Assembly: GCA_030640805.1 (NCBI GenBank)
Contig: DAOWIS010000043.1
Coordinates: 1 to 38,412, forward strand
Source: a bacterium
Lineage (GTDB): Bacteria; Patescibacteriota; Minisyncoccia; Minisyncoccales; DAOWIS01
Length of the DNA: 38,412 nucleotides
Reading direction: 5' to 3'
Under the pieces are notes generated by a model. The model made no database searches. It was not told the origin of the DNA and saw only the letters and a list, made by a program, of their open reading frames with translations. Shown here piece by piece: positions 6,499 through 13,168 of this stretch. How positions within the stretch are numbered: position 1 is the stretch's first letter; every line of letters begins with the position of its first letter. The translations under genes and the position numbers were made by a program.

Positions 6499-7653
6499 AT
6501 GAAAATTGCTTTGGTTCACGATTATCTTATTCAGTATGGAGGAGCAGAAAGAGTTCTTGAGGCTTTCTCTGAAATTTTTCCCCGAGCCCCAATTTATACC
6601 TTGATTTATGATAAAGAATTAACAGGAGGGATATTTGAAGGTAAAAGAATTTATACTTCTTCTTTACAAAAAATTCCTTTAATAAAAAATCACCATCGTT
6701 TATTTTTAACTTTAATGCCCCTGGCTATTGAGCAGTTTGACCTTTCTTTTTACGATGTAGTTCTTTCTGATTCCGCCAGTTATGCTAAGGGAATCATTAC
6801 TAAGCCGGATACACTTCATATTTGCTACTGCCATACTCCTCTAAGATATGCCTGGGATGATAGTCATAGATATATTAAAGAATTTTATTTTCCACCTATA
6901 GTAAAAAAATTTATCCCTTTAGCCATAAATCATTTACGGATTTGGGATAGAGAAGCAGCTTTTCGGGTAGATAAATTCATTGCTAATTCTTTCTTTGTTC
7001 AAAGAAGAATTAAAAAATATTACCAAAGGGACTCGGAAGTAATTTATCCTCCAGTAGCTACAAAAAAGTTCGAAGTTCCAAGTACGAAGTACGAAGTACG
7101 AAGCAATGAAAAAAGATTAAAACTTCAGAACTTCCGACTTCCGACTTCCGACTTTTTTCTGATGGTGGGACGGCTTTTGCCCTATAAACGTTTTGATTTA
7201 GCCATAAAAGTTTTTAATAAATTGGGCTGGAAATTAAAAATCATCGGTGAAGGACCAGAAAGAAAAAAATTAAAAAAGATAGCCCTTTCCAATATTGAAT
7301 TTTTAGGCAAGGTCTCAGATGAAGAATTAGTAAAATATTACAGTCAAGCCCTGGCTTTTATTTTCCCCCAAGAGGAAGATTTAGGTATTGTGGCTTTAGA
7401 AGCAATGGCCTCTGGCAAACCAGTGATTGCTTATAAAAGTGGGGGTGCCAAGGAGACAGTTATAGAAGGAAAAACTGGATTATTTTTTGAAGAGCAAACT
7501 CCCTCATCTTTAGAAAAAGCCCTTTTGAAATTCAATACAAGAGATTTCAACCCAAAGACCATTCGTAAATATGCCCTTCAATTTGATAAAAGAATCTTTA
7601 AAAGCAAAATTAAAAATTTTATAGAAAAATCTTTATATGACTATAGGCATTGA
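6499..7653 (+). CDS. glycosyltransferase (GT4-like)
   Basis: HDYLIQYGGAERV, FLMVGRLLPYKRFDLAI, FIFPQEEDLGIVALEAMASGKPVIAYKSGG. Confidence 0.9.
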   Translation: MKIALVHDYLIQYGGAERVLEAFSEIFPRAPIYTLIYDKELTGGIFEGKRIYTSSLQKIPLIKNHHRLFLTLMPLAIEQFDLSFYDVVLSDSASYAKGIITKPDTLHICYCHTPLRYAWDDSHRYIKEFYFPPIVKKFIPLAINHLRIWDREAAFRVDKFIANSFFVQRRIKKYYQRDSEVIYPPVATKKFEVPSTKYEVRSNEKRLKLQNFRLPTSDFFLMVGRLLPYKRFDLAIKVFNKLGWKLKIIGEGPERKKLKKIALSNIEFLGKVSDEELVKYYSQALAFIFPQEEDLGIVALEAMASGKPVIAYKSGGAKETVIEGKTGLFFEEQTPSSLEKALLKFNTRDFNPKTIRKYALQFDKRIFKSKIKNFIEKSLYDYRH

Positions 7654-8797
7654 CCTTAGAGTTTTAACTCGAGATATTCATACCGGAGTAGAGGAATACA
7701 CAGAGGGACTTTTGTCCCATCTTTTATATTTAGCTCCCAATATCAAGTTTAGACTTTTTTATAACGGATTTTTTAAAATTAAACTAAATTATCCTTGGCG
7801 AAAATTAGCCAATGTAGAAATTAAAAATTTTTCTATTCCTAACCGCTTAATAAATACTTCTTCTTATTTTTTAAATTGTCCTAAAATCGATAAGTTATTA
7901 GGAGGAATTGACCTATTTTTCAGTCCTCATTTTATTTTCAGCCCCCTTTCCAAGGGCTGCCCAAAGGTAGTTACTTTTCATGATCTTTCTTTTGAACATT
8001 ATCCTCATTTTTTTTCTTTGAAGAGAAAAATATGGCATAGACTGGTTAATCCCAAAAAACAAGCAAAAACTGCTGAAAAAATTATTGCCGTTTCTCAATC
8101 TACCAAACAAGACCTTATTAATTTTTACGGAATTAGGCCTTCCAAAATAAAAGTAATTTATTCTGGAATAGGAGAAGAGTTTAAAACTCAAAACTCAAAA
8201 CTCAAAACTCAAAACCACATCTTAAAAGTCAAAACTATTAAAAAGAAATATAATTTGCCAGAGAAATTTATTCTTTACTTTGGCACCATTGAACCCCGAA
8301 AAAATATCATTGGCTTAATTAAGGCCTTCGAGCAACTAAAACTAGCGAATTTATACAAATCTGATTTAAAATTAGTTATTGCTGGCTCTCCCGGTTGGCT
8401 TTATCAAGATGTGTTTAAAACCGCTCAAGAATCTAAATACAAGAATGATATTATCTTTACTGGTTTTATAGAAGACAAAGATAAACCCTATTTATATAAT
8501 TTAGCAGAAGTTTTTGTTTATCCCAGTTTTTTTGAGGGTTTTGGTTTTCCTCCCTTAGAGGCAATGGCTTGCGGCTTACCGGTTATTACTTCTAACACTT
8601 CTTCTTTCCCGGAAATAGTAGGTGATTCAGCTATAATGGTTGATCCTTATAAAATTGATGAAATAAGTTTTGCCCTAAAGGAAGTATTAACCGATAAAAA
8701 TTTAAGAGAGGAACTAATAAAAAGGGGACTAAAACAAGTAAAAAAATTCTCCTGGCAATCCTGCGCCCAACAAACCCTCAAAACCTTGACAGAATAG
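7637..8797 (+). CDS. glycosyltransferase (GT4-like)
   Basis: [47 protein letters not shown]. Confidence 0.9.
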
Positions 8798-8836: not shown

Positions 8837-8875
8837 TTAATAATGTTCGGAAATTTAGGATAAAGAAAGGAGACG

Positions 8876-9751
8876 ATGACGATGGGAGCATCGATCACGT
8901 TAGAGAAAATAACCGATGGCCAAATGGCCAAGGTTAAAGAAATAGTTGAGGCAGCTTTGCGAAAAAGCGGCCTTAAAGGAGATGCTGTCCAAGAAATTAT
9001 TGAAAGAGGAGGTGAATTAAAGAATAAACTTATTCCTGTTTTTCAGGAATTAGGTGAACGGTCCTACGCTGATGAGGAAGTTGAATCAACCTATGGCTAT
9101 CCAGAAGGTTGGAAACTCAAGAGCGTTTCTGAACAGCTTGTTATTTTGGAGAAAATTGAGGAATTTAAGGTTCTTGATGGCAACCATGTTATTGAAATCG
9201 CCAAAGGTTTTTTGGAGCTTCCTGAAGGAGCAGAGGGGTTGGTAGTTATCCCTAAACCTTCTAAAGTAGGCAAGTCCTACAATGAATCCGTAGAGTTGGT
9301 GACCAAACTGATGGCAAAACATCGTAAGGATTGGTACAATTTTTCAGAAGGCCGTCTTGGACCAGAACATCTACGTCTGAATGAGAAACCCCAACAAGCC
9401 CTTAGCCAATTAGAGAGGGAAACTCCAGGAGACTATTTGGTACTTGCAGTCCAAACTGGGTTGCGTCATCGCGGTCGTTCTGACCGTCGAGCCAGAGTGA
9501 TGTTTAGCGACAACGAGTTTGGGCTCGGTCCCTATAAACTCGGCATCATTCTGTTGCTTCATCCCGAGCGGTTACAGAAGTCTGAACATCTTGCAATAGA
9601 CTGTGCCGGCTGCGAATGTTTTTCTGCTACTGGCCGGAAATTTCCTGGCTCGTTTTACTTCGATTGGAGCGCCGGTTCGCTCAACTTCGGTCTCCGTTTG
9701 GTCGATAGCGTCCATCCACGCTTCGGGTCCGCTTCTGGATTCCTTGAGTAG
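8876..9751 (+). CDS. candidate DGR-type variable protein (CPR family ending ...FGSASGFL)
   Basis: C-terminal LRHRGRSDRRARVMFSDNEFGLGPYKLGIILLLHPERL...IDCAGCECFSATGRKFPGSFYFDWSAGSLNFGLRLVDSVHPRFGSASGFLE; the 3' part is GC-rich with C-ending codons, unlike its surroundings. Confidence 0.6.
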   Translation: MTMGASITLEKITDGQMAKVKEIVEAALRKSGLKGDAVQEIIERGGELKNKLIPVFQELGERSYADEEVESTYGYPEGWKLKSVSEQLVILEKIEEFKVLDGNHVIEIAKGFLELPEGAEGLVVIPKPSKVGKSYNESVELVTKLMAKHRKDWYNFSEGRLGPEHLRLNEKPQQALSQLERETPGDYLVLAVQTGLRHRGRSDRRARVMFSDNEFGLGPYKLGIILLLHPERLQKSEHLAIDCAGCECFSATGRKFPGSFYFDWSAGSLNFGLRLVDSVHPRFGSASGFLE

Positions 9752-9941: not shown

Positions 9942-9988
9942 AAAAAGGTTCAATTTCCTGCGATCGCAGCGATTTGAACCTTTTTTAT
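9942..9988 (+). terminator. intrinsic terminator
   Basis: AAAAAGGTTCAA/TTGAACCTTTTT 12-bp stem followed by T tract; loop holds the palindrome CTGCGATCGCAG (9958-9969). Confidence 0.7.
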
Positions 9989-10241
9989 TTCGAATAGATT
10001 TCTCTAAAAAGAAGAATTGCATTTATTTTGCCATTTAGATAAGATAACTATTAGAAGTGTTAGTAAATAATGGATTGGGAAAGCGAGGAAATTGACTTCT
10101 CGGGACCATCCGCAGCCGAGCGGGCATGGTGTCCTCCGACTGAAGTCGGAGGACGAGCGAAGCGAGGACATGAGCGAGCGAGCACGCTGGGTGAGCGAGG
10201 CGTGTCTCCGAAAGTCAGATTTCCGAGCTTATTTACTGATT

Positions 10242-11426
10242 ATGAGAATTGGTATTGATGCCCGGTTTTTCGGGGTAAAACAAAAAGGACTTGGCCGCTA
10301 TTCCCAGGAATTAATTGAAAATTTAGAGAAAATCGTCAGTCCTGACGACTTTGAATTTTTGATTTTTTTAAGAAAAGAGAATTTTCATCAGTACCAGCCC
10401 AAAAACCCCTCTTTTAAAAAAGTTTTAGCCGATTACCGATGGTACACTTTAGCTGAGCAGATTTTTATGCCTTCAAAAATCCGGCAAGAGAAAATAGACC
10501 TGATGCATTTCCTTCATTTCAATGTTCCTTTTTTTTACCAAGGCGAGTTCGTAGTTACTATTCACGATTTGGTCTTAAAAGAATTTCCTACCCAAAGAGC
10601 TACTACTCTGCATCCCTTAATTTATAAATTAAAAGAACAGGGCTATAAAATAGTCATTAAAAATGCCCTCAAAAATTCAGAAAAAATAATTGTTCCATCC
10701 CAAGCCACCAAAAATGAGATACTTAAATATTTTAAGACAGAGCCGGAAAAAATTAGGGTGGTTTATGAAGGAACATCTCAGATGGAAATTCCAAATCACA
10801 AATCACAAATCACAAATAAATTCCAAATTCCAAATTCTAAATATCAAAATAAAATATTAAAGAAATATAGAATTAACAGGCCGTATTTGCTTTATGTGGG
10901 GAGCGCTTATCCTCATAAGAATTTGGAGAATTTAATTTTGGCTTTTGATTTACTACGAAAAGAAAACTTTGGTTACCAGTTAGTATTAGTAGGAGAATTA
11001 GATTACTTCTATAAAAGATTAATGTCAAGTATCAAGTATCAAGTATTAAGTATTAAGTATCATTCAGACATTATTTTCACTGATTTTATTCCTGATTCAG
11101 ATCTATCTCAACTTTACCAAAATGCTTCCATGTCTGTTTTTCCTTCTTTTTCTGAAGGATTTGGCTTGCCTCCAACCGAGGCGATGTCTTTTGGAGTTCC
11201 AGTAGTTGTTTCTGATATCCCAGTTTTTCGAGAGATTTTAGGAGAGGCGGTTTTATTTTTTAATCCCAAAAACCAAAAAGATATTGCTTCCAAAATAAAA
11301 AAGGTTTTAGAAGATGAAAAAATTAAAAATAATTTAATTGAGAAAGGTTTCTCTCAAATCCAGAAATACAGCTGGCAAAAAATGTCCCAAGAAATCCTCA
11401 AAATATATAAAGAAATTCTTTCTTAA
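10242..11426 (+). CDS. glycosyltransferase (GT4-like)
   Basis: MRIGIDARFFGVKQKGLGRYSQELIENL; LLYVGSAYPHKNLENLILAF; VFPSFSEGFGLPPTEAMSFGVPVVVSD. The ORF-track start at 10092 reads through GC-rich palindromic DNA and is unlikely. Confidence 0.9.
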   Translation: MRIGIDARFFGVKQKGLGRYSQELIENLEKIVSPDDFEFLIFLRKENFHQYQPKNPSFKKVLADYRWYTLAEQIFMPSKIRQEKIDLMHFLHFNVPFFYQGEFVVTIHDLVLKEFPTQRATTLHPLIYKLKEQGYKIVIKNALKNSEKIIVPSQATKNEILKYFKTEPEKIRVVYEGTSQMEIPNHKSQITNKFQIPNSKYQNKILKKYRINRPYLLYVGSAYPHKNLENLILAFDLLRKENFGYQLVLVGELDYFYKRLMSSIKYQVLSIKYHSDIIFTDFIPDSDLSQLYQNASMSVFPSFSEGFGLPPTEAMSFGVPVVVSDIPVFREILGEAVLFFNPKNQKDIASKIKKVLEDEKIKNNLIEKGFSQIQKYSWQKMSQEILKIYKEILS

Positions 11427-11583
11427 ATGCTTAAAAAAGACAATTTAAAGTAAGATCAAAAAATAATTATAATTTAGACCGAACATTTTTAAGAGACGAT
11501 CGTCCATTGAGAATGTTCAGTTAAATTTTTTTAGATTATTAAGTTTTCTCAGATTTTATATTAGTAAAAGTAAAAAGCCTCGC

Positions 11584-12618
11584 TTAGGAGACTTTTTGTA
11601 TTTTTTCCGAGTAATGTTTTAAAAGATTATTTACAGCATCCTTTAGTAGTTTAATATATTCATCGCTTCTGGATCGTAAATGATTTTCTTTTCTCTTGAG
11701 AATGTCAATACGACACCCAACCAATCGTTCTAAAAGAATAACCGTAAATAATCCTTCGTAGTTCTTGTAGGGAATACTCTTTTTATAATCAAGTGGGGCT
11801 CTTTTGTAGAATTCCTTCTGATATTTTTTGATATAACTATAAACTTTTTTATAGTTTATTTCTAACAAGAACTCTTTTTCAAAATGTAAAAGCTGCCACC
11901 ACAAGGGCCAGACTGCGTCATAAAGAGATGGACGCCACTTCAAGTGTCCCCCAAAATCAAAGAGATATATCTTGTCGTTTTTGATAATCATATGGTGTTG
12001 TCCGTAGACTCCATAGGTTGGCCAAATCTTTTTTAAATTGGGGTGCTGTTTTTCCCATTGCTGGACATTGAAAATTAATTCCTTTTGTGTTTCTAAAGAG
12101 AGAATTTCTGTTTTGTATTCTTTTCTGGCTTTATCACACCATCCTTTTATTTTAATATTGAACCAATCCTTGAGAGTTGGAAATTTATTTTTTCTTTTAA
12201 CCATTCCGGGCTCTAAAATGATTAAATTCTTTAAATCTTTTTGAGCATCTCTTAATAGCCGATTAAGCTTCCAGAAAGCATCAACGATGAGAGAAAAATA
12301 CGGCAGAAAAAGAGTATTCATATGCTTTTTTTCAATATCCTCGTTTGGTTTTATGCCTCCAAGATACTCCATTATAATATAATTCTCCGAGTAGTCATAA
12401 AATTTCGGGATAGAAAGAAATCTATAATTTCCAGTTTGCAGATATTTAGATAAAATCTTATAAATTTCCACCTCACTTCCTATATTATCGGTTTTAAGAA
12501 CTAAGAATTTACTCTTTTGGTCCTTACATAAAATCACGTGATCACCATACAAAATCTTAATTGGTTTAAGATTTTTATCTCGACATATATCTAATACTTT
12601 TTCTGAAATGTTTATCAT
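11584..12618 (-). CDS. aminoglycoside phosphotransferase/kinase-fold-like protein
   Basis: FLVLKTDNIGSEVEIYKILSKYL, IIMEYLGG, IYLFDFGGHLKWRPSLYDAVWPLWW resemble the APH-type fold. Confidence 0.5.
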   Translation of the reverse strand: MINISEKVLDICRDKNLKPIKILYGDHVILCKDQKSKFLVLKTDNIGSEVEIYKILSKYLQTGNYRFLSIPKFYDYSENYIIMEYLGGIKPNEDIEKKHMNTLFLPYFSLIVDAFWKLNRLLRDAQKDLKNLIILEPGMVKRKNKFPTLKDWFNIKIKGWCDKARKEYKTEILSLETQKELIFNVQQWEKQHPNLKKIWPTYGVYGQHHMIIKNDKIYLFDFGGHLKWRPSLYDAVWPLWWQLLHFEKEFLLEINYKKVYSYIKKYQKEFYKRAPLDYKKSIPYKNYEGLFTVILLERLVGCRIDILKRKENHLRSRSDEYIKLLKDAVNNLLKHYSEKIQKVS

Positions 12619-12664
12619 AAATCCTCCTTTTTAGTATAGCAGGGAATTCTTTCTTTTCCAACAA

Positions 12665-12692
12665 AAGAGAGGGAATTTATTTTCCCTCTCTT
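12665..12692 (-). terminator. hairpin at the end of the YdcF-like gene
   Basis: AAGAGAGGGA/TCCCTCTCTT inverted repeat overlapping the stop. Confidence 0.5.
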
Positions 12693-13168
12693 ATTTTAAT
12701 CTTTAGCCGTTCAATTAGCGGAAAGTAATAACTGATGATTTCTATTGGCGTTCCAATGAGAATCTGCTTTATTTTGCCTTTTAGATTGGTAGTCAGAGGA
12801 TAACTAATAATTTGGAAGGAAAAGCCATCAAGGACTCTTTTAGCCAAAAACCGGATTTTAAATTTTCTGATTTTATCACAGAAAATAGTGACCAATTCCG
12901 GAGTCAATTGTTTTTCCTCTATTATCCCTTTGGAATAAACCAGATTCTCTTTAGTTGTTCTTGCCTTTGTTTCTGAAAGAATTGGAACTTTGACTCCGAT
13001 TTGTTTAAGGTAGCCAGACATCATTTCTGCTTCGCCCTGCCAGCCAGTAGTTATTACCACTAAATCATTAGAAGATTTATTGATATATTCCGCTACTTTC
13101 TGGAGATACCTTTTCATTCTTTCATGAATCACGCTGCCGTAACCTAAGACCACTATTAATTCTTTCAA
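12677..13168 (-). CDS. YdcF-like (DUF218/ElyC-SanA) protein
   Basis: VVLGYGSVIHERMKRYLQ, VITTGWQGEAEMMSGYL, ARTTKENLVYSKGII. Confidence 0.75.
   Translation of the reverse strand: MKELIVVLGYGSVIHERMKRYLQKVAEYINKSSNDLVVITTGWQGEAEMMSGYLKQIGVKVPILSETKARTTKENLVYSKGIIEEKQLTPELVTIFCDKIRKFKIRFLAKRVLDGFSFQIISYPLTTNLKGKIKQILIGTPIEIISYYFPLIERLKIKIREGK

Follow-up and report, generated by a model that had tools for sequence, protein, structure and literature searches.

The window, which is the entire 38-kb contig analysed here (G000:C47, from a 721-kb genome in 49 contigs that is 97.4% complete), carries on its forward strand an intact 291-aa open reading frame at positions 8876–9751, present once in the genome and encoding a candidate variable protein (VP). 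An alternative start at 8882 fits better with the ribosome-binding-like motif AAAGGAG at 8866–8872. The gene lies mid-contig, with no assembly break at its position, and is flanked by two genes named from their sequence as putative GT4-type glycosyltransferases (7637–8797 and 10092–11426), as described in the initial annotation. Its 3′ end contains the variable region (VR; 9620–9748, forward strand), which is homologous to the template repeats (TRs) of relatives and is characterised by depletion of adenine, randomised codons at template-adenine sites and a retained scaffold. Within the VR, the conserved 3′ end encoding GSASGFL (9725–9745, forward strand) corresponds to a segment in which TR and VR are identical in relatives, a position that would fit an initiation of mutagenic homing (IMH) element. 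Downstream of the gene, a terminator-like palindrome with 22-nt arms (86% complementary) and a following T run occupies 9942–9985. Beyond it, positions 10080–10231 form a GC-rich dispersed repeat with the palindromic core GTCCTCCGACT/AGTCGGAGGAC, of which two more near-full copies at 93–95% identity, plus fragments, are located elsewhere in the genome; the GC peak and spurious open reading frames of that interval are due to this repeat.

The window VP almost certainly belongs to a family of Patescibacteria targets of diversity-generating retroelements (DGRs). Its identity to relatives is 31–45%, 69 relatives are aligned, homology extends over the full protein, and the scaffold elements EFGLG, HPER, DCAGDE and GSASGF are kept in the relatives with hypervariable columns in between, in line with the conserved scaffold and intervening variable residues first annotated here. 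Family members occur in 11 of 147 same-order genomes, the window's own excluded, and a scan of GTDB representatives yields 100 members, from which the 80 loci underlying the counts of cis and orphan targets below are drawn. Nearly all of these 80 loci are from Patescibacteria, and the few members in metagenome-assembled genomes labelled Loktanella, Acidobacteria and beta-proteobacterium probably reflect misbinning. In the VP tree the window protein forms a long branch of 1.28. Carriage of VP is only weakly associated with the presence of a reverse transcriptase (RT) in the same genome, an RT being present in 5 of the 11 carriers and in 45 of the 147 relatives. Two scans of IMG/VR reveal no viral relatives and a phage collection contains no credible relative of VP, on which grounds a viral origin is rejected.

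The window VP has no Pfam or NCBIfam match and no credible PHROG match, and Pfam and PHROG searches at E 0.01 return nothing for any of the 70 aligned family members; as judged by this lack of a library model, the family is undescribed in CPR. In this respect it resembles the CPR DGR targets without recognisable domains reported previously (PMC8144416). The AlphaFold2 model of VP is confident (pLDDT 93.8, pTM 0.88). Fold searches of the PDB and of viral libraries return no significant match, and a sequence search of the PDB returns none, so that no known domain or fold is significant for VP in family, fold or sequence searches. Among the weak, non-significant top PDB fold matches, C-type lectin domains recur, and the C-type lectin is the usual fold of DGR targets (PMC8144416). 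The modelled structure is perhaps that of a divergent C-type-lectin-like domain, and VP may function as a ligand-binding protein whose variable face would be formed by the last β-strands.

Template repeats and mutator genes in relatives

A scan for near-repeats mismatched at a single kind of template base identifies a TR next to an RT in G128; this TR aligns with the part of the gene encoding the VP C-terminus and differs from it at 21 adenines and 1 other position. The same scan places a TR a few hundred bases from the VR at 23 of the 80 loci. Pooled over these 23 cis TR/VR pairs, 438 of 768 template adenines are changed versus 17 of 2255 other bases, and 438 of the 455 mismatches thus fall on template adenines. 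The TR translates to approximately DADGxFxxAPYFNFNDDKVKFDTNWVDNANDNYGSASGFLPK, with abundant AAY and GAY codons, and compared with the TRs the VRs retain the scaffold while N, D and K residues are replaced. Additionally, a DGR-type RT carrying the G[IL]PIGNLTSQ motif adjoins the TR in 22 of the 23 cis loci, and an Avd protein is encoded antisense between TR and RT in the loci examined; the one Avd checked scores above the curated thresholds set for NF033474 and PF22296.

Because the 23 TR/VR pairs are adenine-specific and have a DGR-type RT and Avd alongside, the VP family consists of bona fide DGR targets. The assignment of the window protein as the variable protein of a DGR, within a Patescibacteria-wide family, is strongly supported, which bears out the original proposal of a DGR variable protein from an expanded CPR family. 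The relatives, with VP, TR, Avd, RT and adenine-specific mismatches, are organised like the cellular DGRs of CPR (DGR clade 2; Roux et al. 2021, PMC8144416). Unlike clade 2 DGRs (PMC8144416), the window genome holds the target alone.

The apparently missing mutator and orphan targets

The window genome yields none of the components of a functional DGR, namely RT, TR and Avd. Specifically, an RVT_1 search detects no reverse transcriptase, an Avd search detects none, a DNA search reveals no second copy of the VR, and a TR/VR profile search recovers only the VP itself, although this profile does pick up the genuine TRs in G128 and G173. At the level of the 38-kb window, no TR, RT or Avd remnant is present above chance. 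The absence of an RT or template repeat from the window, noted at the outset, is thereby confirmed, and the genome-wide search then suggested, for an RT and a near-copy of 9620–9748, finds neither. The absence of a mutator is likely, not proven, because a few percent of the genome (49 contigs) is unassembled and a mutator could lie there or in unbinned DNA. The window VP is very probably an orphan target without a mutator, and this orphan is probably a fossil. Initially, the lack of an RT was attributed either to a trans-acting DGR or to a fossil target; the former is unsupported in this genome, with no RT, TR or Avd found in it, and a fossil or orphan target fits better.

Orphans, defined as VPs with at least 3 kb on both sides lacking a TR or RT, make up 34 of the 80 loci. 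On the VP tree, orphan and cis members are intermingled, which forces at least 10 changes of state and indicates that loss, transfer or both occurred repeatedly; the same scatter rejects the orphans as a single separate lineage; one well-supported branch of 9 is entirely orphan. Locus L097, where TR and RT are present, is wrongly counted as an orphan in the VR-column, tree and codon-site comparisons, which leaves the picture unchanged. Some RT is found in 15 of the 32 orphan-bearing genomes, and an orphan VR matches a TR at the resident RTs in only one of them, G173. Except in this genome, resident RTs are unsupported as mutators of orphans, since the RT loci contain either no TR/VR pair or an unrelated one of their own. 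Across the remaining orphan-bearing genomes that were searched, the whole-genome TR profile yields VPs alone or no match, apart from two weak extra hits in G158, and it is uninformative in G164 and G175, where even the VP is missed. Moreover, G121, G068 and G054 (98–99% complete) contain VPs with no RT, TR or Avd found; G068 (L036, L037, L207; 98% complete) contains three VPs and a truncated fourth. The survey of Roux et al. (2021) required an RT beside the repeat and states that remote targets would be missed (PMC8144416); stand-alone targets are invisible to it because targets were sought next to the RT.

Two further loci show disrupted arrangements. At L140, a downstream VR copy without adenine bias, situated where the TR would be and followed by a DGR RT fragment, lies at 11052–11583 and possibly represents an intermediate, decaying cassette. 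At L097, the DGR RT gene at 11989–12959 is broken, with no repeat tract at the break.

The principal alternative is that the window target is still diversified in trans, with RT, Avd and TR residing in an unassembled or unbinned part of the genome or on a separate element, which appears improbable. Trans action is real in the VP family, since in G173 (Spechtbacteria SB0662_bin_43) a single TR located next to an RT supplies four VPs spread over different contigs, with A versus other mismatches of 20/7, 22/2, 24/3 and 16/1 at L208 (G173:C11), L209, L210 and L211, respectively. Multi-target DGRs with remote variable genes exist, for example in Treponema denticola, and the single TR and four dispersed VPs of G173 are of this kind; the window genome differs from them in having one VP and no TR or RT, with all searches for RT, TR and Avd negative at 97.4% completeness and with the near-complete G121, G068 and G054 likewise lacking a mutator. 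DGR loci are also prone to assembly breaks, the VP genes of G128, G073, G143, G048 and G042 lying at most ~600 bases from a contig end, which would follow from assembly being interrupted by VR variation or TR/VR repetition, whereas the window VP lies mid-contig and away from breaks. Among orphans L074–L077, for which no TR is in hand, most VR differences affect codon positions 1–2, whereas those in the gene body mostly affect position 3; their diversification therefore looks recent, and some other orphans may for that reason have undetected mutators. In contrast, the window VR is substituted at near-invariant scaffold columns (P to F and F to W, with the scaffold otherwise largely preserved) that retrohoming would reset, and such changes are expected without template-driven resetting, in keeping with an orphan target that has no mutator.

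Imprint of hypermutation in the window VR

Because no template of its own exists, the window VR is compared with the TRs of distant relatives. At codon positions 1–2, its identity to the family TRs is 27%, the chance level, at template-A sites and 64% elsewhere; the corresponding values for members with a cis TR are 39% and 78%. Confinement of changes to template adenines, the hallmark by which a DGR variable protein is recognised, is found directly in relatives and indirectly, via the relatives' TRs, in the window. The window VR contains 11.6% A versus 29.8% in the remaining gene, with a mean of 11.4% in the cis-TR members. The six columns with an AAY template read GAT, AGC, CGT, AGC, CAT and CGC, all ending in a pyrimidine and none encoding Asn, and 15 of 17 columns with a NAY template have C or T as the third base (binomial p 0.001 against 0.5), while most GAY columns follow a GNY pattern.

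The initial annotation had also pointed to a last segment of ~300 bp that is richer in GC and in C-ending codons. The C-ending codons are indeed specific to the VR, with a third-position C frequency (C3) of 0.38 versus 0.18 in the gene body, but the VR measures ~130 bp rather than 300, and the GC content is not specific to it. The climb in GC begins near 9175–9400, ahead of the VR, and across the family mean GC is 0.43 in the flanks, 0.57 in the gene body and 0.61 in the VR. Since high GC spans the entire gene in the family, the GC rise is no evidence for a VR and is rejected as its signature.

That the protein is an ordinary homologue of DGR targets never diversified in this lineage, its C-terminal loops varying by point mutation and selection, is very unlikely despite its long branch, its missing mutator and the lack of an own TR for direct comparison, because ordinary drift would not target template-A positions, and mutagenised VRs share the VR-specific loss of A, the chance identity restricted to sites with a template A, the codons ending in Y and the GNY pattern seen here. 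Taken as a whole, the locus is best explained, with good probability, by a past DGR target that is now an orphan without its mutator. In the family, the C-terminal ~43 residues, carried on a conserved scaffold, are rewritten by adenine-specific mutagenic retrohoming from a TR. The window copy would have been diversified in the past, may later have lost its mutator or been transferred away from it, and would now drift like an ordinary gene. With 34 of 80 loci standing alone, three near-complete relatives without a mutator and the scar still legible, the products of hypermutation can outlive the machine that made them.

Repeat tracts in the mutator genes

Six RTs of VP-family cassettes consist of two overlapping frames that are split exactly at a (GA)n tract of 16–35 bases. 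More broadly, 33 of 64 distinct DGR-type RTs carry, on the coding strand, a tract of (GA)5+ or G8+, either in the gene or in the 120 bases upstream. The other sequence at these loci, 2.97 Mb-strand in all, contains 14 such tracts, the expected number being 0.34 (Poisson p 3e-53), which corresponds to a ~100-fold enrichment of tracts in RT genes relative to the surrounding sequence. In a second, phylum-wide set, tracts occur in 13 of 25 RTs and nowhere in the remainder of those loci. Fourteen tracts lie inside the RT, whose reading frame is broken there in 8 cases. The upstream poly-G tracts are located at the N-terminus of the divergent Avd gene and read PPP: at 26 loci (for example L053, L048, L226 and L240), a C8–C11 tract encoding PPP is positioned at the Avd N-terminus, between the divergent RT and Avd. 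In all 26, an upstream ATG opens into the tract; it is in frame with Avd at 7 loci and out of frame at the other 19.

Phase-variable contingency loci contain slipped-strand repeats in coding regions, and the known contingency genes are mostly those of surface proteins, modification enzymes and restriction-modification systems. The DGR RT and Avd genes of the relatives, with (GA)n and poly-G tracts and both in-frame and out-of-frame configurations, are like such loci and look like phase-variable genes in their sequence signature. Unlike known contingency loci, the tract-bearing genes are those of the DGR mutator, and the window itself has no such tracts. In the literature texts searched, no report connects DGRs with phase variation, slipped-strand repeats or homopolymeric tracts; the association is probably, not certainly, new.

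Evenly balanced between holding and failing is a broader model in which the mutator is phase-variable, the (GA)n or poly-G tracts in RT and the poly-C (PPP) tract at the Avd start slipping frames, and in which the targets persist or move without it, the orphans being a frozen, once-diversified repertoire. If true, targeted hypermutation in Patescibacteria would be both switchable and detachable, and the RT and Avd tracts would be a candidate means of keeping a risky activity mostly off through slipped-strand switching. The RTs split at a tract are those of L087, L090, L106, L120, L133, L138 and L067, each at a GA tract, and that of L162, at a G10 tract.
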